Source: Runella sp. CRIBMP
Lineage (GTDB): Bacteria; Bacteroidota; Bacteroidia; Cytophagales; Spirosomataceae
NCBI RefSeq assembly: GCF_009905605.1
Contig: NZ_JAAAKZ010000004.1
Coordinates: 1-64,000, forward strand
DNA length: 64,000 nucleotides
Reading direction: 5' to 3'
Both the position numbers and the translations under genes were made by a program. This document shows, piece after piece, positions 2,995-55,355 of the stretch. Numbering within the stretch: the stretch's first letter is position 1; each line of letters starts with the position of its first letter. The notes beneath the pieces were generated by a model that saw nothing but the letters and a program-made list of their open reading frames with translations, searched no databases and had not been told where the DNA came from.

Positions 2995-3597
2995 ATGAAA
3001 AATTCCTCCTTCACACGTCGCGAGCTGATGCATCTTTTGGGAACAGGAACCGTCGGCTCACTCATTTCTCATACAACATCACAGGCTTATTCGCTACCAA
3101 ACGACGGGGTTAAACCCATTTATGTTTCGAAGGGAAACGGTGACAAAATACGCGTTGGAGGAAATGCGATGACTTTAAAACTTTCAAAAACGCAGACTGG
3201 CGGGGGTTTGTCTTTCTTTGAAAATACGCTAGCTGCTGGCTTTTTGGGCGCTCCACCGCATTTTCACCAAACCTTCGATGAAATTTGTTATGTACTCGAA
3301 GGGACCGTTCACGTCTTGGTGGGAGAAGAAGTATTTGAGCTAAATGTGGGCGATTTACATTTGCGTCCGCGTGGTATAATGCACACCTTTTGGAACTCTG
3401 GAACCCAGCCCGCGCGATGTTTAGAACTGAGTGTACCAGGTGGGCATGAGGCCTATTTGAAAGAAATTAGCGCATTACTGAGCAAAGCTACTCCTCCCAA
3501 GCCCCGTGATTTTGCCGAGTTTGAAAAAAAATACGACATCGTTTATCAAATGGATAAACTGCCCGAAATAATGCAAAAGTATCACGTACATTTGTAA
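2995..3597 (+). CDS. Exported single-domain cupin protein (quercetinase-like)
   Basis: 200 residues. The N-terminus TRRELMHLLGTG followed by a hydrophobic run resembles a twin-arginine leader, suggesting export of a folded metalloprotein. Cupin motif 1 is visible as PPHFHQTFDEICYVLEG (two His and a Glu) and motif 2 as GDLHLRPRGIMHTFWN (the last metal His), so a metal site is likely intact. Family members include dioxygenases and small-molecule isomerases; the substrate cannot be told. An AraC regulator starts 11 bp after the stop codon, indicating a two-gene unit in which the regulator may respond to the cupin's substrate or product (inference). Confidence 0.8.
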   Translation: MKNSSFTRRELMHLLGTGTVGSLISHTTSQAYSLPNDGVKPIYVSKGNGDKIRVGGNAMTLKLSKTQTGGGLSFFENTLAAGFLGAPPHFHQTFDEICYVLEGTVHVLVGEEVFELNVGDLHLRPRGIMHTFWNSGTQPARCLELSVPGGHEAYLKEISALLSKATPPKPRDFAEFEKKYDIVYQMDKLPEIMQKYHVHL

Positions 3598-7675: not shown

Positions 7676-10600
7676 TTAGAATGTAACGCTCAAATTGACC
7701 CCGAAACGCCGCACGGACGGAGCCGAGAAAAAGTCAATTCCTTGGGTATTGGTGTTTCCAAACGTGTTGACTTCAGGGTCAAAGTTGGCGTGTTTGGGGA
7801 AGTGGGGCGCAAAATACCACAGGTTGCGGCCGCTCAATGTGAGGCTCACGGCGCCAAATGGCGTTTTGGTCAACAACGTTTTTGGCAAAGAATATCCCAA
7901 GGTGATTTCGCGTAAGCGGACCACGGATGCATCCCACACCGAGAATTCATTGGGGCCGTTGATGGCCAATGCACCGCCCGCCGCCTGAAACCACAGGTTG
8001 TTTTCCATTACCTGAATGTTGTTGGGGATGGGTTGTCCGTCGCCGCCGAGCAGTGGTTTGAGGGTATTGGCATCGCCCAATACGCCAGCCACTACTTTGG
8101 GCACTTCGCGGTCTTCGGTGTCTTGTGTTACCCCGCGGCCCAGCAAAAACTGGTTTGTCCACGAGTACAGGTCGCCGCCGTGGCGATAATCGACCACGCC
8201 GCTGAGGGTAAATCCTTTGTATTTCAAGGTGTTGGTTACTGCCAAAATAAATTTAGGATTGGGATTGGCAATGATTTTCTGTTGGATGTCAGGAATGGTC
8301 AGGCCCGTATTTGGATTGATGAGGGCGTTGCCGTTTTCGTCGCGGGCCACGGCGGTTCCCCGCAATACCCCAAACCACTCGCCGGGGCGAACCACGGGAA
8401 TCGGGTTGTTGGTAAAAATATTACGCAATGTCACTTCTTCGACGCCGTCGGCCAGTGATTCTACGATGTTTTTATTTTGGGTGTAAGCTGCGAAAATATC
8501 CCATTTGAAACTATTGGCGAGTTGAATTGGAACCAAGGTAATCCCCGCTTCAATGCCTGAGTTGCGAATCGAGCCGAAGTTGGTCACAAAAGAAGTGTAA
8601 CCCGACGACTGCGGCAACGAACGACGGGCGATAATATCGGTACTGAGGCGATTGTAGTACGTAAAGTCAATCACGGCCCTACCGCCAAAAAACTCAAGGT
8701 TGGTTCCGAGTTCAATCTCTTTCGTAAATTCAGGTTTTAGGTTGGGATCAAAGGCCGAAGAAGCCACCGATGCACCAGGCTGACCGTTGAAAGGATAATC
8801 ATTGTAGCGTGTAGAACCCGTTTGTCCTGAGCTTTCTCCGAAATTGATTCTGAACGTATTGAGCGTTTGGTAAGGGTCGGCATCGCGGCCTACTTTGGCG
8901 TAACCCACTCGCAGTTTGGCGCTGGTCAAGGCTTTCGATTTGATATTAAACGCCTCGGTCAAAATGAAGGAAGCACTGCCCGAATAGTAAAAATAACTGC
9001 GGTTGGAGGCTGGCAGGGTAGACGACCAGTCATTGCGGCCCGTGAGGTTTAAGAATAAGTAATTTTTGTACCCCAAGGTCATGTCGGTAAAGGCCGCGTA
9101 CATCCGGCGCTTATTGATGCCCGTATTTCCAGTATTGGGCGTTACGGTACTGACGTTGGTTATCAAATCAATGCCTCGGGTGACAATGCCTAGCCCGTTT
9201 ACGCTCGTTTGGTCGCTGCCGCGTTGGTTGTAGTTGGCGCCCACAATGGCCCGTAGATTTATGTCCGATGTCAGGTTTTGAGTAAGATTAAACAGCAGGT
9301 TGTGGTCTTGTTCTTGAAATTCAATGGCGTCAAACTGCATACTTCCCACTCCCTGAGCGCCCGACAGCGAACCCGCCGAAATACGCTGAAAACGGTTGTC
9401 GTTGTAGCTGTTGAAACCTCCTTTATAGGTCACGTTCAACCAATTGGTTATGTCGTACAAAATGCTGCCATTCAGGGCAATACGGTTTACTTTGCTCGTA
9501 AAAATGCTGTTGTTGACTGACCAATACGGGTTGTCGGCCTGCCCAAACGGGAAGAAAAAGACGCCATTGCCAAACGGGTCTTCGTAGGGCAGCTGGTCGA
9601 GTGGCCAGTTACGAGGTTGTTGAAACATCCGCGCTAGGGGAGAAGTGCCGTCGCCCCCAAAAAGCGGGCTGTTCTGAAGGGTGTTGGTATAAGCTAAGTT
9701 GGCTCCGACGATAAAGCCGTTGTCGAGGGTGGTATTTCCGCCCACGCTGATGTTGGTTCGTTCAAAACCCGACCCTGGGAAAAAGCTCTGCTGGTCGGTA
9801 CGCGAAATCACCGATGTGATGCTGGCTTTGGGGCCGCCACCCGTGATACTGACCGAGTTTTCGTAGACACTCCCCGTGCGAAAGAAATTTTTCACGTTGT
9901 CGGGATATGCTTGATACGCCACGTTTCCGCCAGGGCGCAGGCCGTATTGTGCAGCCAGTGCAGGGTAGTTGGTGGTGTAGGTGTTGTAGCCAACCCAAAT
10001 TGGAATGGAGTCGACGGGGGCGGTAGAATTGGCCCAACCGCCTGCCGCGTTGTAGGTGCGGCCTAGGCCGAATGCGGGCCCCCAGGTGCCGTTGGCATTG
10101 GCGTAGACCTGCTGCGAACCCGAGCCATATTTGTTTTGGAAATCAGGATAGCTCGCGATTTTCTCGGCCGAGTATGACGTATTGTACGTAATTTCTAATC
10201 CTTTTTTTGACAGCTTGTTGGTGCCCGATTTGGTCGTGATTACAATCACCCCGTTGGCGGCGCGGGTTCCGTACAGGGCGGCGGCGGCGGCTCCTTTCAA
10301 GACCGTCATAGAGGCGATGTTGTTAGGGTCAAGGTCGGCAATGCGGCTAGAAAAGGCCGCACCGTTGTCACGGAAATTGCCGCTTTCGTTCAGGTCGTTG
10401 TTGTACGGAATGCCATCCACCACAAAAAGGGGTTGGTTACTTCCAAAAAAAGAGTTGGCTCCCCGAATGGTAATCCGGGACGAGCTCCCCGCTGCCCCTC
10501 CTGAGCCGTTGATGTTGACCCCTGGAATCTTGCCCTGCATGGCTTTCAATACATCAGGTTCTGATTTCTGCACCAACTTGTCGGCCGAGAGGCGCTCCAC

Positions 10601-10966
10601 CGAATAGCCCAGAGATTTGTTGCTGCGCTCAATCCCGACGGCTGTTACTACCACTTCGGTCAATTGCTTGACATCGTCGCTTAGAATAACGTTAATGGTG
10701 GTTTGGGCCCCAACGGCCACTTCTTTGGAGGAATAACCGATAAAGCTGAACACTAGCGTGGCGTTGTTGGGAACCTGGATTTGGAAGGTTCCGTCGGAGT
10801 TGGTGGTGCTGCCCGTGGCAGAGCCTTTAATAACGACGTTAACGCCTGGTAGTGGGGTTGCGTCGGAGGCGGCGGTCACTTTGCCCGAAACGGTGCGATT
10901 TTGGGCATGGCCGTGGATGACACTCAAGAAAACCCCAAGCATCAGGAACAATAAACTTTTTTTCAT
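7676..10966 (-). CDS. SusC/RagA-family TonB-dependent outer-membrane transporter
   Basis: 1096 residues from the chosen ATG. The reading frame extends 32 codons further upstream, but the ATG at 10966 begins a clear signal peptide (MKKSLLFLMLGVFLS...GHAQ), so I place the start there. After it come a carboxypeptidase-regulatory-like beta domain (SGKVTAASDATPLPGVNV to FIGYSSKEV), a TonB plug (MQGKIPGVNINGSGG, ITIRGANSFFG, PLFVVDGIPYNND) and a long beta-barrel ending in the aromatic outer-membrane signal (FGVNLSVTF). It imports nutrients using TonB energy, with its SusD partner downstream. It is transcribed divergently from the sugar-acid operon at 11605. Confidence 0.95.
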   Translation of the reverse strand: MKKSLLFLMLGVFLSVIHGHAQNRTVSGKVTAASDATPLPGVNVVIKGSATGSTTNSDGTFQIQVPNNATLVFSFIGYSSKEVAVGAQTTINVILSDDVKQLTEVVVTAVGIERSNKSLGYSVERLSADKLVQKSEPDVLKAMQGKIPGVNINGSGGAAGSSSRITIRGANSFFGSNQPLFVVDGIPYNNDLNESGNFRDNGAAFSSRIADLDPNNIASMTVLKGAAAAALYGTRAANGVIVITTKSGTNKLSKKGLEITYNTSYSAEKIASYPDFQNKYGSGSQQVYANANGTWGPAFGLGRTYNAAGGWANSTAPVDSIPIWVGYNTYTTNYPALAAQYGLRPGGNVAYQAYPDNVKNFFRTGSVYENSVSITGGGPKASITSVISRTDQQSFFPGSGFERTNISVGGNTTLDNGFIVGANLAYTNTLQNSPLFGGDGTSPLARMFQQPRNWPLDQLPYEDPFGNGVFFFPFGQADNPYWSVNNSIFTSKVNRIALNGSILYDITNWLNVTYKGGFNSYNDNRFQRISAGSLSGAQGVGSMQFDAIEFQEQDHNLLFNLTQNLTSDINLRAIVGANYNQRGSDQTSVNGLGIVTRGIDLITNVSTVTPNTGNTGINKRRMYAAFTDMTLGYKNYLFLNLTGRNDWSSTLPASNRSYFYYSGSASFILTEAFNIKSKALTSAKLRVGYAKVGRDADPYQTLNTFRINFGESSGQTGSTRYNDYPFNGQPGASVASSAFDPNLKPEFTKEIELGTNLEFFGGRAVIDFTYYNRLSTDIIARRSLPQSSGYTSFVTNFGSIRNSGIEAGITLVPIQLANSFKWDIFAAYTQNKNIVESLADGVEEVTLRNIFTNNPIPVVRPGEWFGVLRGTAVARDENGNALINPNTGLTIPDIQQKIIANPNPKFILAVTNTLKYKGFTLSGVVDYRHGGDLYSWTNQFLLGRGVTQDTEDREVPKVVAGVLGDANTLKPLLGGDGQPIPNNIQVMENNLWFQAAGGALAINGPNEFSVWDASVVRLREITLGYSLPKTLLTKTPFGAVSLTLSGRNLWYFAPHFPKHANFDPEVNTFGNTNTQGIDFFSAPSVRRFGVNLSVTF

Positions 10967-11303
10967 AAATGAATTGAAGATTTGGTTTTTTAAATCTGTT
11001 GTGAACAACCTTTTACGATTGCTGACAACAAAGTTCTCCAATTCAATTTTGTTAAAAATCACCCATTTATAGGGGTTTATCAGTGGCGATGTTACCTAAA
11101 TATGAAATTGGATTTTGCCCAAAAAAGGCGAATATTTTAAGCATGGAGCAGAATTGCACCTTTGGGGAAAGACGCTTGCTGACCAAAAAATAAAATATTC
11201 TACCGTCATATCCCTCATTTACGGTTACCCCTATTGTTAGGGAGGGGAAAAAACATAAAGAAAGCCTAACAGCCAAAATGCAGATACATCAAGCTCCAAA
11301 AAC

Positions 11304-11604: not shown

Positions 11605-12960
11605 ATGAACAAAATAGATGTAAACCGCCGGGAAACCATGAAAATGCTGGGCCTCGGTGGCTCTGCCGGACTCCTTGGACTGTTCGGTGGTGTATCCAAT
11701 GCCCAAGCACGGGAAGAAAAAGGTACGCCGTCGTACGCCAAAGCGATGAAACCCGTCAAAATCACGAGCGTAAGGGCCATCGCTACGGCCCCCCAAGGCT
11801 CCAATCTCATTGTTGTAAAAGTTGAAACTTCGGAGCCGGGCCTTTATGGTTTGGGTTGTGCTACCTTTACCCAGCGCGCGGCTACTGTGAGTGTGGCCAT
11901 CAATACCTACCTCAATGAGTTTTGTGTAGGAAAAGACGTCGACAATATTGAAGACATGTGGCAGGCCGCTTATGTGAGTTCGTATTGGCGCAACGGCCCC
12001 GTGTTAAACAACGCCCTCAGTGGTTTGGACCAAGCCCTTTGGGACATCAAAGGCAAACGCGCCGGAATGCCGCTTTATCAATTGCTCGGTGGTAAAGTTC
12101 GTTTTGCCATTCCATGCTATACACATGCCAACGGCAACACCCCTGAGGCCACGGTGGAGAGCGTAAAAAGCATCATGGAGCGCGGTTTTAAGTACATCCG
12201 AATCCAGCAGGGCGGCTACGGCGCCGTGGGTAGTACCGAACAAAAACCTGATTTTAAAGCGGCAGGTTTTGGCGGAGAAACCGACAACTACATGAATGAG
12301 CGCACGTACCTGAAATCTATCCCTAAACTGTTTGAAACCGTGCGGAAAGGTTGCGGCGACGACATTGAACTGCTGCACGATATACACGAGCGGGTGCAGC
12401 CGATGGATGCCATCAACATGATTAAAAAATTGGAAGATTATCGCCCATTTTTTATTGAAGACCCTTTTTCTCCCGAAAACATGAAGTGGTTTAAGCAACT
12501 TAGGGCCAGTACTTCGGTGCCGATTGCGATGGGTGAGTTATTTAATAATATTAATGAATTTGTGGAACCAATGGTTAACCAGTGGTTTGACTACATTCGC
12601 ATCCACGTCTCCCAAATCGGGGGAATTACGCCCGCCATGAAGGTGGCGAGGCTGGGTGAATGGTTCAATATCAAAACGGCTTGGCACGGCCCGGGAGACG
12701 TGTCGCCCGTGGGACACTCGGCACACGCTCACATTGATTTGGCGGTTTGGAATTTTGGAATTCAGGAAGCCGTCTCTTTCAACGAAAAAACGCTGTCGGT
12801 TTTTTCGGGTTGCCCAACCATGAAAGACGGGTATATGTCGGTCAACGAAGTACCAGGTATCGGGGTGGATATCAACGAAAAAGAAGCCGCCAAATATCCC
12901 ATCACCACCAAATCTAACTGGCAGGTAAGGAAGTTTGACGGAACCATCATCCGACCGTAG
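11605..12960 (+). CDS. Tat-exported enolase-superfamily sugar-acid dehydratase, mannonate-dehydratase (ManD/RspA)-like
   Basis: 451 residues. The N-terminus has a twin-arginine leader (NRRETMKMLGLGG, then a hydrophobic segment ending near AQA), so the mature enzyme should be periplasmic. The rest fits the ManD/RspA branch of the mandelate racemase group: metal ligand Asp259 followed by His261 (HDIHERVQP), Glu285 (FFIEDP), Glu311 (MGELFNN), and the C-terminal block WHGPGDVSPVGHSAHAH. Cytosolic relatives dehydrate D-mannonate or D-gluconate to 2-keto-3-deoxygluconate. It is the first gene of a six-gene plus-strand operon that also contains a KDPG-type aldolase. The exact sugar acid is not determined. 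Confidence 0.85.
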   Translation: MNKIDVNRRETMKMLGLGGSAGLLGLFGGVSNAQAREEKGTPSYAKAMKPVKITSVRAIATAPQGSNLIVVKVETSEPGLYGLGCATFTQRAATVSVAINTYLNEFCVGKDVDNIEDMWQAAYVSSYWRNGPVLNNALSGLDQALWDIKGKRAGMPLYQLLGGKVRFAIPCYTHANGNTPEATVESVKSIMERGFKYIRIQQGGYGAVGSTEQKPDFKAAGFGGETDNYMNERTYLKSIPKLFETVRKGCGDDIELLHDIHERVQPMDAINMIKKLEDYRPFFIEDPFSPENMKWFKQLRASTSVPIAMGELFNNINEFVEPMVNQWFDYIRIHVSQIGGITPAMKVARLGEWFNIKTAWHGPGDVSPVGHSAHAHIDLAVWNFGIQEAVSFNEKTLSVFSGCPTMKDGYMSVNEVPGIGVDINEKEAAKYPITTKSNWQVRKFDGTIIRP

Positions 12961-13077
12961 GGGTAGGGTTTACCCCTGTCCAAAGAAGGCAGTAACCTGA
13001 GTCGTAAATTGTAAATTTTTCGTGTCTGATTACGTTTGCCCTTTTTTATCTCCCTTCCATCCAAACCTTGCTACTTC

Positions 13078-14319
13078 ATGCAACGAAGAAACTTTATAAA
13101 AACGGCGGTGTTAGGCTCAACTGCGCTGGCGGTTGGATTGCCATTGTACGAAGCAGAGGCCGCTTCCAAGCTAAAAATCACTAAGATTCGCTACTATACA
13201 GCGCCCGGCTATAACAAACCCCTTTTTAATCAAGCCCGGGGCATTGTTGAGATAGAAACCGACGGCGGCATCATCGGCATTGGCGAAGGCGGCTCCAAAG
13301 ATATGATTGAGCAATGCGCTCAGATGCTGATTGGCGAAGACCCGTTCCGTATTGAGCACCTCTGGCAGTATCTTTATCGCGGTATGTTTTATCCCCCCGG
13401 CCGCGAAAAACTCCACGGACTAGGCGCATTGGAAATGGCCCTTTGGGATATAAAAGGCAAGGCCCTAAACGTGCCCGTTTATGAACTGTTGGGCGGCGCT
13501 ACCCGCGATTACATCGAATGTTACGCTACGGGGTTTCGTGCCTCCAAAGCCACAACGGAGGAAGGCCGAGCGCAAGACTGCATCGCAGCGGGGCTGCGGG
13601 CGTATCGGATTGGTCCCACGGGCGGAAATGGCACCGAGCCTTTTGATTTTTACGAAAACGTCAAAAAAACCATTGACTTCTGCAAGCGAATCGACACAGC
13701 CGTGGGTGGGGGCGGTAAGTGGGCCATTGACCTGCATACCCGTTTTGACATGACCGACGGCCTTAAGATTTGTACGGCCTTGGAAAATCTCGAACCCTAT
13801 TTTGTCGAAGACATCGTGCGTTCTGAAAATCCTGGGGTGTATAAAACCGTACGCGCCATGACCAAAGTGCCGATTGCGGTGGGAGAACAATTTGGGGACC
13901 GTTGGGATACCAATGAACTGATTGAAAATCGGCAGATTGACTACACCCGCTTTACCCTTCCCAACACGGGTGGTATCAGTGAATTTAAGAAATTGGCCGC
14001 GATATGCGAAACGCATTATGTGGGTATGATTCCGCATTTTACGGGGCCTTTGTCCACAGCTGCCCTCGTGCACGTGTTGGGGGCGAGTAGCCCCATGCGT
14101 TGCTTGATGGAACTCGGCGGGGGCGAACCCGAACGTCCGCCTTATTTCAACGAAGATTTTATTAACTTCAAAAATGGTAAACTGTACCTCAACGACAGCC
14201 CTGGTTTGGGCGTGAAGTTTGACCCCAAAAAAGCTACCTTTGTGATGGAAATAAAAGAAAAAACCAAGTTTCCACACCCTATTTTAAAGGCTCCCGACGG
14301 TTCTATTCATAATTGGTAG
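13078..14319 (+). CDS. Tat-exported enolase-superfamily dehydratase, galactonate-dehydratase-like
   Basis: 413 residues. I start at 13078 because that ATG begins a textbook twin-arginine leader (MQRRNFIKTAVLGSTALAVG); the 14 upstream codons in frame have no family match. Mandelate-racemase-type N-domain, then a barrel with Asp218/His220 (IDLHTRF), Glu244 (YFVEDIVRSE), Glu270 (VGEQFGDRW) and His320 (GMIPHFTGPLS), the layout of D-galactonate dehydratase. Family chemistry is removal of water from an aldonate, giving a 2-keto-3-deoxy acid. It follows the ManD-like gene by 117 bp, so two dehydratases of different stereochemistry may act in the same compartment. Confidence 0.85.
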   Translation: MQRRNFIKTAVLGSTALAVGLPLYEAEAASKLKITKIRYYTAPGYNKPLFNQARGIVEIETDGGIIGIGEGGSKDMIEQCAQMLIGEDPFRIEHLWQYLYRGMFYPPGREKLHGLGALEMALWDIKGKALNVPVYELLGGATRDYIECYATGFRASKATTEEGRAQDCIAAGLRAYRIGPTGGNGTEPFDFYENVKKTIDFCKRIDTAVGGGGKWAIDLHTRFDMTDGLKICTALENLEPYFVEDIVRSENPGVYKTVRAMTKVPIAVGEQFGDRWDTNELIENRQIDYTRFTLPNTGGISEFKKLAAICETHYVGMIPHFTGPLSTAALVHVLGASSPMRCLMELGGGEPERPPYFNEDFINFKNGKLYLNDSPGLGVKFDPKKATFVMEIKEKTKFPHPILKAPDGSIHNW

Positions 14320-14324
14320 TTGAT

Positions 14325-15296
14325 ATGAAGCATACATTTTTACCCCTGATGCTGTTGGTAATCGGATGGACAGGTTTTATTGCCTCCGCAGATTTTCCTA
14401 CGGCCAAAATTTCCAATGGCCTGATTGAGGCCGAACTATACCTGCCCGATGCCCAGCGAGGGTATTATCAGGGAACCCGCTTTGATTGGTCGGGTGTGAT
14501 GCCTCGGCTAGAGTACAAGGGTCACAGTTATTTTGGTATTTGGAATCCCGCCCCTTACGACCCCAAATTGCACGATGCCATAGCAGGCCCCGTGGAAGAA
14601 TTTGTGGCCGTAGGGATGAATGAAGCACCCGTTGGCGGAGAATTTCTGAAAATCGGCGTAGGAACGCTCATCAAACCCGATGCTAAACCCTACTCTTTTT
14701 TGACGCCCTATACCCTCAAAAATGGCGGAAAATGGACGGTGAAAACATTTAAAGACAAAGTGGAATTTACGCATGAGTTGACTGATGCCGCGGGCTATGG
14801 GTATCTATATCGTAAAACCGTAAAACTCACCAAAGGAAAGGCGGAATTGGTTTTGGAACACAGCCTGAAAAATACGGGTACAAAACCCATCGAAACTCAA
14901 ACCTACAATCATAATTTCTTCATGATTGACAATGAGCCGACAGGCCCAAATATGCAAACCCTTTTTCCGTATGAAATCAGCGCCGAAGGTAAAGGATTTG
15001 GTACAGTGGTGAAAGCAGAAAATCGGATGCTCGTCTTCACCAAAGAAGTACCGCCGGGCGAGAATGTATTTAGCAGTGGCGTAAAGGGATTTGACGCGAC
15101 GCCCGAAGATTACGACATCCTGATTCAAAACCTGAAAACGGGTGCAAGTGTACAAATTAAGGGAGATAAACCTCTGGAAAAATTGGTATACTGGGCCTGT
15201 CATACCACTTCTTGCCCAGAGCCTTACATCAAGCTGTCGGTGAAGCCGCAGGAGGAAGTAAAGTGGAAAATTAATTATGTGTTTATTGCACGCTAA
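14325..15296 (+). CDS. Secreted galactose-mutarotase-like protein
   Basis: 323 residues. I chose the ATG at 14325, 5 bp after the preceding stop codon, because it begins a Sec signal peptide (MKHTFLPLMLLVIGW...ASA). The mature part is beta-rich and resembles the galactose mutarotase-like superfold (ISNGLIEAELYLPDAQRGYYQGTRFDWSG, NTGTKPIETQTYNHNFF), though classical epimerase catalytic residues cannot be confirmed by eye. Its place between dehydratase and PQQ dehydrogenase genes suggests that it handles the sugar ring form in the periplasm, for instance supplying the beta-anomer to the dehydrogenase. That role is inference. Confidence 0.7.
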   Translation: MKHTFLPLMLLVIGWTGFIASADFPTAKISNGLIEAELYLPDAQRGYYQGTRFDWSGVMPRLEYKGHSYFGIWNPAPYDPKLHDAIAGPVEEFVAVGMNEAPVGGEFLKIGVGTLIKPDAKPYSFLTPYTLKNGGKWTVKTFKDKVEFTHELTDAAGYGYLYRKTVKLTKGKAELVLEHSLKNTGTKPIETQTYNHNFFMIDNEPTGPNMQTLFPYEISAEGKGFGTVVKAENRMLVFTKEVPPGENVFSSGVKGFDATPEDYDILIQNLKTGASVQIKGDKPLEKLVYWACHTTSCPEPYIKLSVKPQEEVKWKINYVFIAR

Positions 15297-15299
15297 GTT

Positions 15300-15375
15300 A
15301 AAATCACGCAGTGGCGCAACGTAGCAAATGTTTTAATGCTTAACTCTTTGCTTCTCTGAGACTTTGCGTGATTTT
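15300..15375. repeat. Intergenic palindromic repeat element
   Basis: Outer arms AAAATCACGCA (15300-15310) and TGCGTGATTTT (15365-15375) are perfect 11-bp complements. The right part (15352-15371) recurs with two mismatches at 44827-44846. This type of CTCTG...CTTTGCGTGA element is typical of short dispersed intergenic repeats in Bacteroidota. It may also end transcripts: T residues follow the right arm. Confidence 0.6.
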
Positions 15376-15427
15376 TAACTCTGCTTAATGCTGGAAAACC
15401 AACGTGTTATTGGTAAAAAAGACAAAT

Positions 15428-17635
15428 ATGAAGTATTGGAAACACGCTTTGGGTGGTTTTTTTGCCTTACTGATTTGCGGAGCTGCGTTTCAGCTAACAA
15501 CTGATAACAACATCGACTGGCCCAAATACGGAGGCAATAGCGCGGGAAGTAGGTACGCGGAGTTGACCCAAATAAATGCGGAAAATGTCAATAAATTGCA
15601 ACTGGTGTGGTCGTACGATACGGGCGAGAACAACAATCCCGACGGTAAAGGCAATGATATTCAATGTCAGCCAATTGTGGTCAATGGTATTCTTTACGGG
15701 ACCACCCCGCGTTTGAAATTGTTTGCTGCCGATGCGGCTACGGGCAAAGAATTGTGGAAATATGACCCTTTTTCCAATCCAAAAGTAAAGCCCAATTTTC
15801 ATCCCGTCAGAGGGGTAGTATACTGGGAAGAGGGTGCTGATAAAAGAATCCTATATTCCGTCGGCGCTAAGCTGATGGCGGTCAATGCTTTGACGGGAGC
15901 GTTGATAACTGATTTCGGTGAAAATGGCTTGGTTGACCTCCACGCTGGGCTCGGCGACCAGCAAACGCTGGGCTACGACGTCAACATTTTTACCATTCGT
16001 TCCACAACGCCTGGTGTCATTTTTAAAAATTTGCTCATCATGGGTTCGTCGGTTTCGGAAGGCGGCGACGCACTCCCTGGCAATATTCGGGCGTTTGATG
16101 TGCGCACTGGCAAATTGGCGTGGGTATTCCGGACTATTCCGTTGCCGGGAGAATACGGCTATGAAACCTGGTCGAAAGATTCGTATAAGAAACTCGGCGG
16201 GGCCAACTGCTGGGCAGGTATGGTTTTGGACGACAAACGCGGCACGGTGTTTTTGGGAACGGGTTCGCCTTCGGTTGATTTTTACGGCGGCGCGCGCAAA
16301 GGCACCAATCTGTTTGCCAACTGCGTTATTGCCCTCAATGCCGAAACGGGCAAACGCCTCTGGCATTTTCAAACGGTTCACCATGATTTGTGGGATCGCG
16401 ATATTCCCTGTCCGCCCAACCTGATTACGGTGATGCACAAAGGCCCCGACGGTCGCTCCCGAAAAGTGGATGCCGTAGCGCAGGCCACGAAAGACGGTCT
16501 TATTTTTGTTTTTGACCGCGACACTGGTAAGCCGCTTTTTCCCATCAAAGAAGTGCCCGTGCCCAAAGTTGCGGCGCTGCCCGGCGAAGCTCCTTGGCCC
16601 ACTCAGCCCGTTCCCGTAAAACCTGCGCCCTTTGCCAATCAGACATTTACCAAAGCAGATTTGACCAATATTTCTCCAGCATCAGCGGCGTATGCGCAAT
16701 CGGTTTTTGAAAAAAGTAGAGGAGGATTGAAAAACCTTCCACCGAGCACGACCGAAACCCTTTATTACGGCATCGGGGGTGGCGCTGAGTGGGGAGGCAG
16801 TGCGGTTGACCCCAACGGAATAATGTACGTTAATGCCAATAATATGCTTTGGTTGTTGAAAATGCAGGCCACCAATCCCCCAAAAACCACGAAAGCATTG
16901 ACCAAAGGCGAGAAATTGTTTACCACTAACTGTGCCGTTTGTCATGCAATGGATGCCAAAAATACCGCCCTTGCGACTACGCAGGCGTATCCCAATTTGC
17001 AGGATGTGGGCAAAAAACTTACCCGTCAACAAATCCATACACTCCTCGAAACGGGCCGGGGCAGAATGCCGTCTTTTCAGCACCTTACCAAGCCCGACCG
17101 GGAAGCCATTGTTCACTTTTTGCTGAAAACAGAAATCCCGACGAAGGCCGATGATATTCATCGGGTAACGACGATTGAGAACAAAACTGGGCGGGATTTT
17201 CCGTATACGCCATTGTACCAAAATAAGGGATTTCGTCAGTTTAGGGACGCCGACAACTACCCAGCCATCAAACCGCCTTGGGGCACGCTGAATGCCGTGG
17301 ATTTGAACACGGGGGAATATCTTTGGAAAGTTCCGTTGGGAGAATACCCCGAATTGGCAAAAAAAGGCATTCGGAACACGGGTACCGAAAACCACGGTGG
17401 CCCCCTCGTAACGGCGGGTGGTCTGCTTTTTATCGCGGCCACTTACGACGAAAAACTGCGGGCTTTTGATACAAAAACGGGAAAAGTGGTGTGGGAATAT
17501 ACCTTGCCAGCAGGGGGCTTTGCCACGCCGATTACGTATCAGGTCAAGGGAAAACAATACATTGCCATCGCGGCGGGGGGCACCCGGTATGACTTAAAAC
17601 CCGGCGGCAAATACGTGGCGTTTGCCTTGCCTTGA
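15428..17635 (+). CDS. Exported PQQ-dependent dehydrogenase with inserted cytochrome c domain
   Basis: 735 residues from the ATG at 15428, which opens a Sec signal peptide (MKYWKHALGGFFALLICGAAF); eight upstream in-frame codons are ignored. The mature part is an eight-bladed quinoprotein propeller beginning WPKYGGNSAGSRYAELTQIN. A cytochrome c domain is inserted before the last blade, with haem motif CAVCH at residues 502-506 and a likely axial Met547 (GRMPSF). Relatives oxidise aldoses or alcohols in the periplasm and pass electrons through the haem to the respiratory chain. In this operon the likely job is aldose to aldonolactone/aldonate oxidation upstream of the dehydratases. No PQQ biosynthesis genes are in the window. 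Confidence 0.9.
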   Translation: MKYWKHALGGFFALLICGAAFQLTTDNNIDWPKYGGNSAGSRYAELTQINAENVNKLQLVWSYDTGENNNPDGKGNDIQCQPIVVNGILYGTTPRLKLFAADAATGKELWKYDPFSNPKVKPNFHPVRGVVYWEEGADKRILYSVGAKLMAVNALTGALITDFGENGLVDLHAGLGDQQTLGYDVNIFTIRSTTPGVIFKNLLIMGSSVSEGGDALPGNIRAFDVRTGKLAWVFRTIPLPGEYGYETWSKDSYKKLGGANCWAGMVLDDKRGTVFLGTGSPSVDFYGGARKGTNLFANCVIALNAETGKRLWHFQTVHHDLWDRDIPCPPNLITVMHKGPDGRSRKVDAVAQATKDGLIFVFDRDTGKPLFPIKEVPVPKVAALPGEAPWPTQPVPVKPAPFANQTFTKADLTNISPASAAYAQSVFEKSRGGLKNLPPSTTETLYYGIGGGAEWGGSAVDPNGIMYVNANNMLWLLKMQATNPPKTTKALTKGEKLFTTNCAVCHAMDAKNTALATTQAYPNLQDVGKKLTRQQIHTLLETGRGRMPSFQHLTKPDREAIVHFLLKTEIPTKADDIHRVTTIENKTGRDFPYTPLYQNKGFRQFRDADNYPAIKPPWGTLNAVDLNTGEYLWKVPLGEYPELAKKGIRNTGTENHGGPLVTAGGLLFIAATYDEKLRAFDTKTGKVVWEYTLPAGGFATPITYQVKGKQYIAIAAGGTRYDLKPGGKYVAFALP

Positions 17636-17671
17636 TTACAATCACTATTCACAAATTCACTGTTAATTTTT

Positions 17672-18313
17672 ATGAGTAAAACTGCATTTTCGTGGGAATT
17701 ATTTAACAAAGCGCCCATCGTTGGCATCGTTCGGGGATTGTCGTTGGAAGAAGTAAAACAAATTTTGCCACTGTACCGGGAAGCGGGTTTGACCACCATC
17801 GAAATCACGATGAACACTCCCGATGCCGAGAAAATTATTGAGTATGCCGTTGAAAATGAACAATATGGCCTGAACATCGGTGCAGGAACGGTGTGCACAA
17901 AAGATGATTTGAAGAAGGCTCTGGAGGCAGGCGCGCAGTTTATTGTGACGCCAATTCTGGATAAAAAAGTAGTCAAGGCCTGCGTCAAAAAAGAGATACC
18001 CATTTTTCCGGGGGCGTTTACGCCTTCCGAGATTTTTAAAGCATGGAGTTTAGGTGCGAGCATGGTGAAGGTGTTTCCAGCTACGCAAATGGGGCCGTCG
18101 TACATCAAGGAATTGAAAGCGCCCCTCAATCAACTCAAATTGCTCCCCACGGGGGGCGTGAGCTTGGACAATATCGCTGAGTTTTTAAAAGCGGGTGCCG
18201 ACGGTGTAGGAATGGGGGGGCAATTGTTGGATAAAAAGTTGATTCAAGAAAAAGATTGGCAAAAGCTCAAACTACATTTTTCACAATTTATTAAACAACT
18301 TCCCCGCCGATGA
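17672..18313 (+). CDS. eda: 2-keto-3-deoxy-6-phosphogluconate (KDPG/KHG) aldolase
   Basis: 213 residues, normal for Eda, with no signal peptide, so cytosolic. The Schiff-base lysine is Lys133 in MVKVFPA and the catalytic Glu is Glu44 in TIEIT; GAGTV and LPTGGV phosphate-site segments are present. It cleaves KDPG to pyruvate and glyceraldehyde-3-phosphate; some members accept related 2-keto-3-deoxy acids. Its stop codon overlaps the start of the MFS carrier gene (ATGA), so the two are translationally coupled. Odd: no KDG kinase gene is present in the operon, so either a kinase elsewhere phosphorylates KDG or this aldolase acts on the free acid. Confidence 0.93.
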   Translation: MSKTAFSWELFNKAPIVGIVRGLSLEEVKQILPLYREAGLTTIEITMNTPDAEKIIEYAVENEQYGLNIGAGTVCTKDDLKKALEAGAQFIVTPILDKKVVKACVKKEIPIFPGAFTPSEIFKAWSLGASMVKVFPATQMGPSYIKELKAPLNQLKLLPTGGVSLDNIAEFLKAGADGVGMGGQLLDKKLIQEKDWQKLKLHFSQFIKQLPRR

Positions 18314-19614
18314 GCGCCCCTAAAATAAAAAACTACCGTTGGTTGATTGTGGTTTTGCTCTTTACCGCCACCACAATCAACTACTTAGACCGGCAGATTA
18401 TTGGGTTGTTGAAGCCTATTTTAGAAAAAGAATTTGCGTGGTCAGAGACCGACTATGCGCGTATCATTATGGCCTTTACGGCGGCGTATGCCATTGGGTT
18501 GTTGGCATTGGGCTGGTTGATCGATAAAATCGGGACAAAGCATGGCTACTCCATCACCATTGTATTTTGGAGTATAGCGGGGATGCTTCATGCACTGGCC
18601 CGCAGTGCCTTCGGTTTCGGCGTGGCCCGGGTGGGATTAGGCTTAGGTGAAGGCGGCAACTATCCAGCGGCGGTGAAAACGGTGGCGGAATGGTTTCCCA
18701 AAAAAGAACGCGCGTTGGCTACTGGGCTTTTCAATGCGGGTACTAGCGTGGGCGTAGTGGTAGCCCTGATTCTTGTACCGTGGATTTTGACGACCTACGG
18801 CTGGCAGGAAGTTTTTTGGATTACGGGGGCGCTTGGTTTTGTGTGGTTGATTTTTTGGCTTATCTATTACGATATTCCAGCCAAACAAAAACGCCTGACC
18901 ACGGAAGAGTACGAATACATCGTCAACGGTCAGGAAAAGGAAGAACAGCACACCAGCGAGAAAGCCAGTGTTAATTGGATGAAATTGTTTTCTTTCCCCC
19001 AGACGTGGGCTTATATTACAGGCAAGGGCTTAATTGACCCGATTTATTGGTTCTTTCTGTTTTGGTTGCCGTCTTATTTTGCTTCCACTTTTAACCTTGA
19101 CCTCAAAAAACCGAGTTTGGAATTGATGCTTATTTATACCGCCACCACCGTGGGAAGTATCAGCGGTGGCTGGTTTTCGTCGCAACTCATCAAGCGTGGT
19201 TGGCCCGTCATCAAAGCCCGAAAAATGGTCATTTTGGTGATTGCGGTTCTTGAATTGTCCGTCATTTTTATTCAGTTTGCCCCCAATGTCTGGGTAGCGG
19301 TTGGGTTGATTAGCTTTGCGGTGGCGTTGCATCAGGCATGGGCTACCAATGTATTTACGTTACCGTCCGACATGTTTCCAAAACAAGCCGTGAGTTCCAT
19401 TGTGGGCATCGGCGGAATGGCGGGCGCGTTGGGCGGGATTCTTTTTCCGATGCTGATTGGTAGTCTGTTGGATACCTACAAAGCTGCTGGAAACCTCGCG
19501 GGCGGGTACAATATCATCTTTACCATTTGCGGTTGTACTTACCTGATTGCGTGGGGTATCATTCATTTGCTGACCCGTAAATCCAAAATGCTGGAATTGA
19601 CGGAGTTGGAGTAG
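18310..19614 (+). CDS. MFS transporter, hexuronate/sugar-acid (ExuT-like) type
   Basis: 434 residues with about 12 membrane segments and the anion:cation symporter signature near the N-terminus (TINYLDRQIIGLLKPIL). Central polar loop around residues 195-220 with KQKRLTTEEYEYI. Relatives import glucuronate, galacturonate or aldonates with protons. It overlaps eda by 4 bp and is the last gene of the operon. It most simply brings in the sugar acid, or its dehydrated product made by the exported dehydratases. The 108 bp after the stop codon hold only a GC-rich imperfect hairpin (about 19618-19646) before the convergent queG gene. Confidence 0.9.
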   Translation: MSAPKIKNYRWLIVVLLFTATTINYLDRQIIGLLKPILEKEFAWSETDYARIIMAFTAAYAIGLLALGWLIDKIGTKHGYSITIVFWSIAGMLHALARSAFGFGVARVGLGLGEGGNYPAAVKTVAEWFPKKERALATGLFNAGTSVGVVVALILVPWILTTYGWQEVFWITGALGFVWLIFWLIYYDIPAKQKRLTTEEYEYIVNGQEKEEQHTSEKASVNWMKLFSFPQTWAYITGKGLIDPIYWFFLFWLPSYFASTFNLDLKKPSLELMLIYTATTVGSISGGWFSSQLIKRGWPVIKARKMVILVIAVLELSVIFIQFAPNVWVAVGLISFAVALHQAWATNVFTLPSDMFPKQAVSSIVGIGGMAGALGGILFPMLIGSLLDTYKAAGNLAGGYNIIFTICGCTYLIAWGIIHLLTRKSKMLELTELE

Positions 19615-54296: not shown

Positions 54297-55355
54297 ATGA
54301 AAAGACGCCAATTTATACAAAAGACTGCTTTGGGTTTCACGGCGCTTTCGTTGCCTGAATTTCCTTGGCCAATGGCCTCTACCCGTATGGGTATTGTGGT
54401 GCATTCGTACGCGAGCCGATGGAACTCTAAAGTTCAAAGTGCTAAATACCCAGGATTTCAAAATGCGGTTGATTTACTGGAACATTGCCATCAAATAGGC
54501 GCAGGGGGCATACAGGTAGTGGTGAAAGATTGGAGTCTTGATTTTGCCCAAAAGGTCCGCGACAAAAGGGAGAAATTAGAACTTTACGTAGAAGGGTCCA
54601 TTGGTTTGCCCAAAAAGCCAGAAGATGTGGCTGCGTTTGAGAATGAAGTGAAGAATGCCCGGGAGGCGGGTGCACAAATCCTCCGCACGGTCTGTTCGGG
54701 TGGGCGGCGCTATGAGGTGTTTCATTCGGCGGCGGCCTTTCAAGATTTTAAGAAAAGCTCGTTGGTTTCTCTACAATTGGCCGAGCCGATTCTCCGCAAA
54801 TACAAAGTCAAACTAGCGGTCGAAAACCACAAAGATTGGCGGGCGAAGGAACTGGTGGCGGCGTTGAAGCAGATAAACAGCGAATGGATTGGCGCAACCT
54901 TAGATTTTGGCAATAACATTGCCTTATTGGAAGACCCCACCGAGGTAGTGCAGGCGTTGGCCCCGTATCTTTTCAGTACGCACATCAAAGACATGGCCGT
55001 GGAAGAATACGCCGAAGGGTTTTTATTGTCAGAAGTGCCCTTGGGGAAAGGAATATTGGATTTGCCCAAACTGGTGGGTATTTGCCAGCAACACAACCCT
55101 AATGTCACGTTCAGTTTAGAAATGATTACCCGCGACCCGCTGATGATTCCGTGTTTAAATTCGGATTATTGGGCCACGTTCGAGGGTATTTCGGGGGCTG
55201 AATTTGCCCAAACGCTTCAGATGGTCAAAAAAAACAAGTACGCTTCGGCGCTACCGAGGGTATCACAACTAACGCCCGAGGAACGGCTGGCAGTAGAAGA
55301 AAATAATATATTGGAAAGTTTGAAATACAGTAAAGAAAAATTAGGCCTTAAATAA
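54297..55355 (+). CDS. Tat-exported sugar phosphate isomerase/epimerase-like TIM-barrel protein
   Basis: 352 residues. Twin-arginine leader MKRRQFIQKTALGFTALSLP, so probably periplasmic. The AP-endonuclease-2/xylose-isomerase-like barrel is shown by LAVENHKDW (metal Glu), GATLDFGNN (Asp), STHIKDM (His) and FSLEMITRDP (Glu), a complete metal site. Relatives are inosose dehydratases, ketose epimerases and isomerases. The C-terminus carries an extra helical tail (LTPEERLAVEENNILESL). 107 bp after the cytochrome-propeller gene and 29 bp before the SDR gene. Confidence 0.85.
   Translation: MKRRQFIQKTALGFTALSLPEFPWPMASTRMGIVVHSYASRWNSKVQSAKYPGFQNAVDLLEHCHQIGAGGIQVVVKDWSLDFAQKVRDKREKLELYVEGSIGLPKKPEDVAAFENEVKNAREAGAQILRTVCSGGRRYEVFHSAAAFQDFKKSSLVSLQLAEPILRKYKVKLAVENHKDWRAKELVAALKQINSEWIGATLDFGNNIALLEDPTEVVQALAPYLFSTHIKDMAVEEYAEGFLLSEVPLGKGILDLPKLVGICQQHNPNVTFSLEMITRDPLMIPCLNSDYWATFEGISGAEFAQTLQMVKKNKYASALPRVSQLTPEERLAVEENNILESLKYSKEKLGLK

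Follow-up and report, generated by a model that had tools for sequence, protein, structure and literature searches.

We analysed a window of 64,000 nucleotides, the stretch from position 1 to 64,000 of contig NZ_JAAAKZ010000004.1 of Runella sp. CRIBMP (assembly GCF_009905605.1; the source genome comprises 7.1 Mb in 55 contigs). Six intact genes, all open on the + strand and densely packed, span positions 11605–19614 of this window, and its two enolase-superfamily enzymes carry predicted twin-arginine (Tat) export leaders. Judging from the sequence, we consider it rather probable that these genes serve a De Ley-Doudoroff/Entner-Doudoroff route which is divided by the inner membrane and has its upper half outside. 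An earlier note on this DNA had described exported dehydratases, a leaderless aldolase and a carrier at the end of the operon, and our analysis confirmed this basic observation. The six genes are as follows:

11605..12960, + strand: enolase-superfamily enzyme of the ManD subgroup, predicted to be exported and probably an aldonate dehydratase (Pfam and NCBIfam profiles)
13078..14319, + strand: GalD-like enolase-superfamily enzyme, predicted to be exported and probably an aldonate dehydratase (profiles and orthologue-based start)
14325..15296, + strand: mutarotase-fold protein with a predicted periplasmic location (fold and invariant residues)
15428..17635, + strand: predicted periplasmic pyrroloquinoline quinone (PQQ) dehydrogenase with a c-type cytochrome set into its propeller (PF01011; nearest to the glucose/quinate family)
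17672..18313, + strand: leaderless, cytosolic aldolase (Eda) of the 2-keto-3-deoxy-6-phosphogluconate/2-keto-4-hydroxyglutarate (KDPG/KHG) type (TIGR01182)
18310..19614, + strand: carrier of the major facilitator superfamily (MFS), D-galactonate-transporter-like (TIGR00893 below its cut-off; PF07690)

Both dehydratase-like genes encode MR_MLE domains in the Pfam and NCBIfam scan, and the aldolase and carrier genes overlap by 4 bases. Comparison with orthologues gave a new start, 13078, for the second gene; for the third and fourth genes the starts at 14325 and 15428 are the more likely ones. The divergent SusC gene at 7676–11062 was considered as an operon member and rejected: it stays put beside the fuller operon of a relative, which has its own SusCD pair.

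Conservation of the export leaders

The ManD-like enzyme begins with a Tat leader at ∼11605–11709 (MNKIDVNRRETMK...SNAQA) and the GalD-like enzyme with one at ∼13078–13161 (MQRRNFIK...YEAEA). For the mutarotase-fold protein we found a Sec leader at ∼14325–14390, and the PQQ/cytochrome c dehydrogenase has a Sec-type leader. Leaders were called with a heuristic of our own that asks for two arginines (RR), then a hydrophobic stretch free of charged residues, and an AxA-like site; if several starts were possible, the one giving a Tat leader was preferred. Orthologues were taken from 28 genome stretches and 80 named loci. The named loci are the best 80 of at least 564 candidates, and each stretch reaches at most 10 kb to either side. 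The ManD-like orthologue set was restricted to proteins with at least 55% identity and at least 350 residues, with near-copies counted once.

All three elements of the rule were present in 99/99 distinct ManD-like orthologues, and R8 and R9 were invariant in 16/16 ManD-like rows. For the GalD-like orthologues we observed RR in 37/37 cases and the AxA site in 36/37, so the rule was satisfied in 36/37; in the 37th the start is misassigned and the motif lies further downstream. DgoD-type orthologues, a third kind of enolase-superfamily enzyme that is found in relatives, carried a Tat leader in 24/24 cases. The Tat leaders that the earlier note had read on both dehydratase-like enzymes are thus conserved. 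Homologous operons in which the leaders are absent, which the note had named as contrary evidence, did not appear, as every examined orthologue with at least 55% identity keeps its leader.

We rejected chance as the source of the leaders: the background rate of the Tat-like rule is 43/758 open reading frames overall, compared to 99/99 ManD-like orthologues. Leaders created by wrongly chosen starts were rejected as well, since RR is invariant across the orthologues. As export is here predicted from the sequence, the leaders could be relics or mispredictions on enzymes that are cytosolic as usual, but we regard this as very improbable. RR is kept while the leader around it drifts: in pairwise comparisons of the ManD-like proteins it is 100% identical, compared to a mean of 43% for the other leader positions and 78% for the mature part, and the AxA-like site occurs in every one of the 99. 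Moreover, four out of four distant ManD homologues from the same order (37–39% identity) are leaderless and begin at the enzyme domain; the one of them that was scored, from L080, clears the D-mannonate dehydratase cut-off (NF043051, 550 bits) with 698.6 bits. The kinase DgoK of relatives (8/8 orthologues) and the aldolase (10/10, as the note had stated for the window) have no leader either. In a tree of 48 hand-picked rows, 36 with and 12 without a Tat-like leader and several on long branches, the exported ManD-like proteins and the four leaderless ManDs fall into separate clades with support values of 100/100 and 100/98; the tree separates the exported clades, and the number of gains is not given by it. 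TatC is encoded in the genome (220 bits). A Tat-like leader was found on 6 of the 14 enolase-superfamily genes of this genome, so export in this superfamily extends beyond the operon.

Active sites and predicted folds

Loss of catalytic residues in the dehydratase-like enzymes, a further point that the note had named as contrary evidence, could be ruled out: the active-site positions are invariant or nearly so in both alignments. In the ManD-like enzyme R199, Y205, D259, H261, E285, E311 and H361 were kept in 16/16 rows; across 100 rows the D, H, E, E and H were found in all and the Tyr in 99. We take these positions to be the metal ligands, the catalytic His and the Tyr-Arg positions. The D, H, E, E and H of the GalD-like active site are invariant (38/38). 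The solved structures closest to the ManD-like enzyme belong to the ManD subgroup (3t6c, 4ihc and 3tw9; 455–452 bits), and the whole mature part can be aligned to them. The match starts at query residue 45–49; the leader has no counterpart in the matched part.

The product of 14325–15296 is predicted to have the aldose 1-epimerase/mutarotase fold. It matches PF01263 with an E-value of 0.006 and 16.4 bits, which is under the cut-off of 27 bits, and R52, H67, H196 and E299 are invariant in 23/23 orthologues. The PQQ dehydrogenase matches the PF01011 propeller with 615.7 bits (cut-off 26.7). Against TIGR03074 (glucose/quinate) it reaches 455.6 bits, under the cut-off of 832.65 for a profile that includes a membrane domain; the match begins at profile position 153 of 783 and the enzyme has no membrane domain. 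D328, which we take to be the catalytic base, is kept in 58/58 sequences. The c-type cytochrome is inserted inside the propeller (15428–17635) and not at the C-terminus, where quinohemoprotein alcohol dehydrogenases have theirs added. The source genome holds three PQQ genes of this kind in its 7.1 Mb. With 191.3 bits the aldolase passes the TIGR01182 cut-off of 156, and it contains the KVFPA motif. The carrier matches PF07690 and scores 248 bits against TIGR00893, under the cut-off of 395.

A fuller operon in relatives

In Runella aurantiaca (L083), the closest relative of the window strain among the named loci, we found the order susC, susD, manD, lacI, galD, enol3, mut, pqq, dgoK, eda, mfs. 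The additional enzyme enol3 is the DgoD-type protein with a Tat leader; it clears the galactonate dehydratase cut-off of 311 with 440 bits, and a score of 448 bits was also obtained for this enzyme among the relatives. All eleven genes recur in Spirosoma sordidisoli (L102) and Fibrisoma limi (L107), where lacI and galD come before susC. In these two loci the first few bases of pqq overlap the last of mut, and those of eda overlap the last of dgoK. The dgoK product of the Runella loci L055/L083 is leaderless and scores 201.6 bits against PF05035 (cut-off 25). The De Ley-Doudoroff gene set of galactonate dehydratase, 2-keto-3-deoxygalactonate (KDGal) kinase and aldolase is encoded together in L083, L102 and L107, and its cut-offs are cleared in L055/L083.

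The DgoD-type gene and dgoK were not found in the window of our strain, and susCD and lacI are also absent from the place of the operon. Between L055 and the window, which belong to one genus, five whole genes differ at four places with clean gene boundaries, and the shared proteins are 82–99% identical. We searched the window and 26 loci of the source genome for remnants of lacI, enol3, dgoK, SusC and SusD with tblastn. LacI and DgoK gave zero matches, and enol3, SusC and SusD gave only paralogues with 20–40% identity. On this evidence the missing genes appear to be whole-gene absences and not pseudogenes. The same compact six-gene form occurs in another Runella (L084), and this recurrence argues against an assembly fault. 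Shorter forms of the operon were observed in Jiulongibacter (L111) and Persicitalea (L126).

Across the 80 named loci we counted the following neighbours of the ManD-like gene: PQQ 49, galD 28, mut 27, enol3 25, lacI 21, dgoK 9, mfs 9 and eda 6. A stricter count placed the PQQ gene at 47/80 loci in 15 out of 38 taxonomic groups, the group labels being copied from the record titles. From the three PQQ genes of this kind in the 7.1 Mb genome we estimate that about 1 in 100 stretches of 20 kb would contain one by chance.

The proposed divided pathway and its alternatives

In the route that we propose the mutarotase-fold protein would equilibrate the aldose in the periplasm and the PQQ/cytochrome c dehydrogenase would oxidise it and hand the electrons to the respiratory chain through the heme that it carries. 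The lactone would then open to the aldonate, a step that may be spontaneous. The dehydratases, which would fold in the cytosol, leave by Tat and need a metal, would convert one or more aldonates outside to 2-keto-3-deoxy acids, either 2-keto-3-deoxygluconate (KDG) or KDGal. The MFS carrier would bring the keto-deoxy acid in and a cytosolic kinase would phosphorylate it, namely DgoK in the relatives and probably a distant KdgK-like enzyme in the window strain. Finally the Eda-type aldolase would yield pyruvate and glyceraldehyde-3-phosphate. In the simplest chemistry galactose or another aldose would give the aldonate and then KDGal or KDG. As two or three different dehydratases stand side by side, the pathway probably accepts more than a single aldonate.

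From the genes, leaders, conservation, active-site residues, clustering and predicted folds in the sequence we infer the location of the enzymes, their substrates, the order of the steps, the cargo of the carrier and the use of KdgK; the sequence of anomerising, oxidising, dehydrating and importing put forward in the earlier note is likewise one that we infer. The leader-bearing enzymes need only a metal ion, PQQ or heme, and the ATP-dependent kinase and the aldolase acting on its phosphorylated product are leaderless, which fits oxidation and dehydration outside and a finish inside. Of the overall interpretation in the note the compartment split found support: it is favoured by the conserved leaders, by the leaderless kinase, aldolase and distant ManDs and by the repeated clustering with PQQ genes. 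The substrate names and the remark on the kinase fared less well, as described below.

A number of results weigh against the divided pathway. The names ManD and galactonate dehydratase are unsupported at curated cut-offs, as the ManD-like enzyme scores 394 bits against the D-mannonate dehydratase profile NF043051 (cut-off 550) and the GalD-like enzyme 203 bits against the galactonate dehydratase profile NF010624 (cut-off 311). The exported enolase-family proteins might be epimerases, cycloisomerases or lyases that act on a uronate, a 3-keto sugar or an anhydro sugar. Their place under every curated dehydratase cut-off speaks for this, as do the functional breadth of the enolase superfamily and the 3,6-anhydrogalactonate cycloisomerase chains among the structure matches of the ManD-like protein. 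However, the neighbouring exported enzyme of the relatives does clear the galactonate dehydratase cut-off and accompanies DgoK, the Eda-type aldolase and a galactonate-type carrier, and D-x-H, E, E and H are kept without exception. We judge such other chemistry to be unlikely.

Further points concern the PQQ enzyme. An adjacent PQQ gene was not seen in 23 of the 38 groups, within stretches of at most about 10 kb on each side and with several short contigs among them. The search for PqqE in the source genome gave at best 59.7 of the required 381 bits, with the control genomes also under the cut-off; for PqqA none of the controls gave a match. PQQ synthesis is likely absent from the source genome. 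The PQQ is probably scavenged, given the PqqE result and the published PqqU-bearing Bacteroidota without synthesis genes: PMC12124388 reports 206 of them, none with genes for PQQ synthesis. It is also conceivable that the dehydratases are exported and active outside on sugar acids from elsewhere and that the PQQ enzyme is a parallel energy gatherer which does not feed them. This is suggested by the 23 groups, by Segetibacter (L124), whose 12 kb stretch contains galD-dgoK-eda-mfs-manD and no PQQ gene, and by Lunatimonas and Cyclobacterium (L136, L147 and L160), in which galD, DgoD and manD are present and PQQ is absent. On the other hand, adjacency in 15 groups is far more than would be expected from about three copies per 7 Mb, and in L102 and L107 the genes mut and pqq overlap. 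We consider a parallel role of the PQQ enzyme possible, though on the doubtful side.

The other enzymes of the pathway are affected too. The operon contains no lactonase gene. The kinase, carrier and aldolase genes were seldom adjacent (9, 9 and 6 of the 80 loci), which is partly due to the loci reaching no further than 10 kb. A search for the DGOK family in the source genome gave zero matches (the control rang in 2/14 genomes), and the DgoK of L055/L083, despite passing the Pfam cut-off, matched nothing in NCBIfam. A kdgK-like gene on another contig (C23) matches the kinase half of NF041633 with 268 bits, which is sub-cut-off, and passes no NCBIfam cut-off. It is flanked by a putative glucuronate isomerase on one side and an Eda-type aldolase (279.6 bits, cut-off 275) on the other, after which comes a putative MFS carrier; the isomerase and the carrier were named by reading the sequence. 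As the kdgK-like gene stands beside an Eda-type aldolase, phosphorylation can come from there. The earlier note was right that the operon has no KDG kinase, and the genome search for kdgK that it suggested did find this gene on a separate contig; its remark was incomplete in that relatives carry dgoK and the genome has a kdgK-like gene elsewhere. Finally, exported ManD is patchy. We found it in 4/395 genomes sampled from the phylum at an E-value of 1e-150, the source genome included. The search at order level gave 24/291 genomes at 1e-60, one of which (G193) was reached solely via a leaderless ManD of 39% identity.

Beyond the divided pathway of this operon, we tentatively suggest a periplasmic branch across the Bacteroidota. 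Several stereospecific Tat-exported dehydratases (ManD-like, GalD-like, DgoD-type and UxuA-like) might funnel mixed aldonates outside the inner membrane into just one or two keto-deoxy acids; many sugars would then be served by one carrier and one cytosolic end, and an exported RraA-like aldolase may cleave outside in some clusters. We hold this to be a good deal less certain than not.

Other clusters with enzymes predicted to be exported

A Sphingobacterium metagenome-assembled genome (L128:5372-16725) has six consecutive enolase-family genes. Five carry a Tat-like leader by the rule, and in the sixth we noticed an RR motif at residue 36 on visual inspection. They are followed by a gene for an unrelated UxuA-family mannonate dehydratase (254.6 bits, cut-off 191), which also bears a Tat-like leader, and one for an RraA-like protein whose start looks Sec-like by eye. 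Relatives of UxuA also occur near exported ManD in L125 and L156, and RraA in L156 and L157. In the Daejeonella-type loci (L112:12376-13266, L113, L118 and L119) a xylose-isomerase-like TIM barrel with a Tat leader follows manD and a mutarotase-like gene; a PQQ gene was not found in these stretches. At L134:12784-13704 a DUF4380 protein takes the position that the mutarotase-like protein has in other operons and perhaps replaces it. Elsewhere in the window there are a cupin (2995–3594) and a xylose-isomerase-like TIM barrel (54297–55352), both with a Tat-like leader. Another stretch of the same genome (L166, contig C1) has a UxuA-family gene with a KR version of the Tat-like leader near a leaderless enolase-family gene.

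Comparison with known systems

Searches of an open-licence full-text library, judged by title and the opening of the abstract, brought up no paper on the export of aldonate dehydratases that we recognised; the earlier note likewise knew of no pathway with such an arrangement. The chemistry would be old and the compartment new, with PQQ oxidation, the De Ley-Doudoroff enzymes and periplasmic work on 3-keto sugars as parts already known. If the divided pathway is true, sugar-acid dehydration, which is treated as cytosolic, occurs outside the inner membrane in scattered, diverse Bacteroidota. Respiratory electrons would be drawn from the sugar ahead of the cost of import, and instead of a carrier for each sugar the cell would need just one, for the shared keto-deoxy product. 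It would also give many enolase-superfamily enzymes of unknown function a testable role and scavenged PQQ a use. The finding would matter for pathway tools blind to compartment, such as GapMind, whose authors say in an excerpt of PMC9007349 that their tool ignores it.

The De Ley-Doudoroff pathway consists of oxidation, dehydratase, kinase and aldolase, as outlined in the excerpt of PMC5507952 used here. The operon of the relatives resembles this D-galactose pathway in having DgoD, DgoK, an Eda-type aldolase and a galactonate-type carrier. The De Ley-Doudoroff dehydratase is cytosolic, whereas here the dehydratases and the oxidase carry export leaders; moreover, the operon of the window strain has no dgoK and no DgoD-type gene.

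In the PQQ glucose dehydrogenase systems of Pseudomonas and acetic acid bacteria the aldonate or ketoaldonate is taken up, and the subsequent steps are cytosolic. The operon shares with them a glucose/quinate-like PQQ enzyme that is predicted to lie outside the inner membrane. It differs in that dehydration apparently takes place outside too, and its PQQ enzyme includes a cytochrome c domain and no membrane domain.

Two further systems come from, or extend to, the Bacteroidota. The Zobellia 3,6-anhydro-D-galactose pathway (dauA-D) runs via 2-keto-3-deoxy-D-galactonate and is encoded in a Bacteroidota locus; dauC is missing in some species, and a non-phosphorylative variant is suggested (excerpt of PMC5698469). 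In that excerpt the monosaccharide is released in the periplasm for uptake and the enolase-superfamily enzyme is described without mention of export, which differs from the arrangement proposed here. The periplasmic 3-keto-glycoside route with LacABC and DUF1080 (Caulobacter, Pedobacter) is proposed in Bacteroidota too (excerpt of PMC9007349). As far as that excerpt goes, this route has in common with ours that oxidation and a second sugar step take place in the periplasm, whereas its second step is the hydrolysis of a 3-keto sugar, with aldonate and dehydratase absent.

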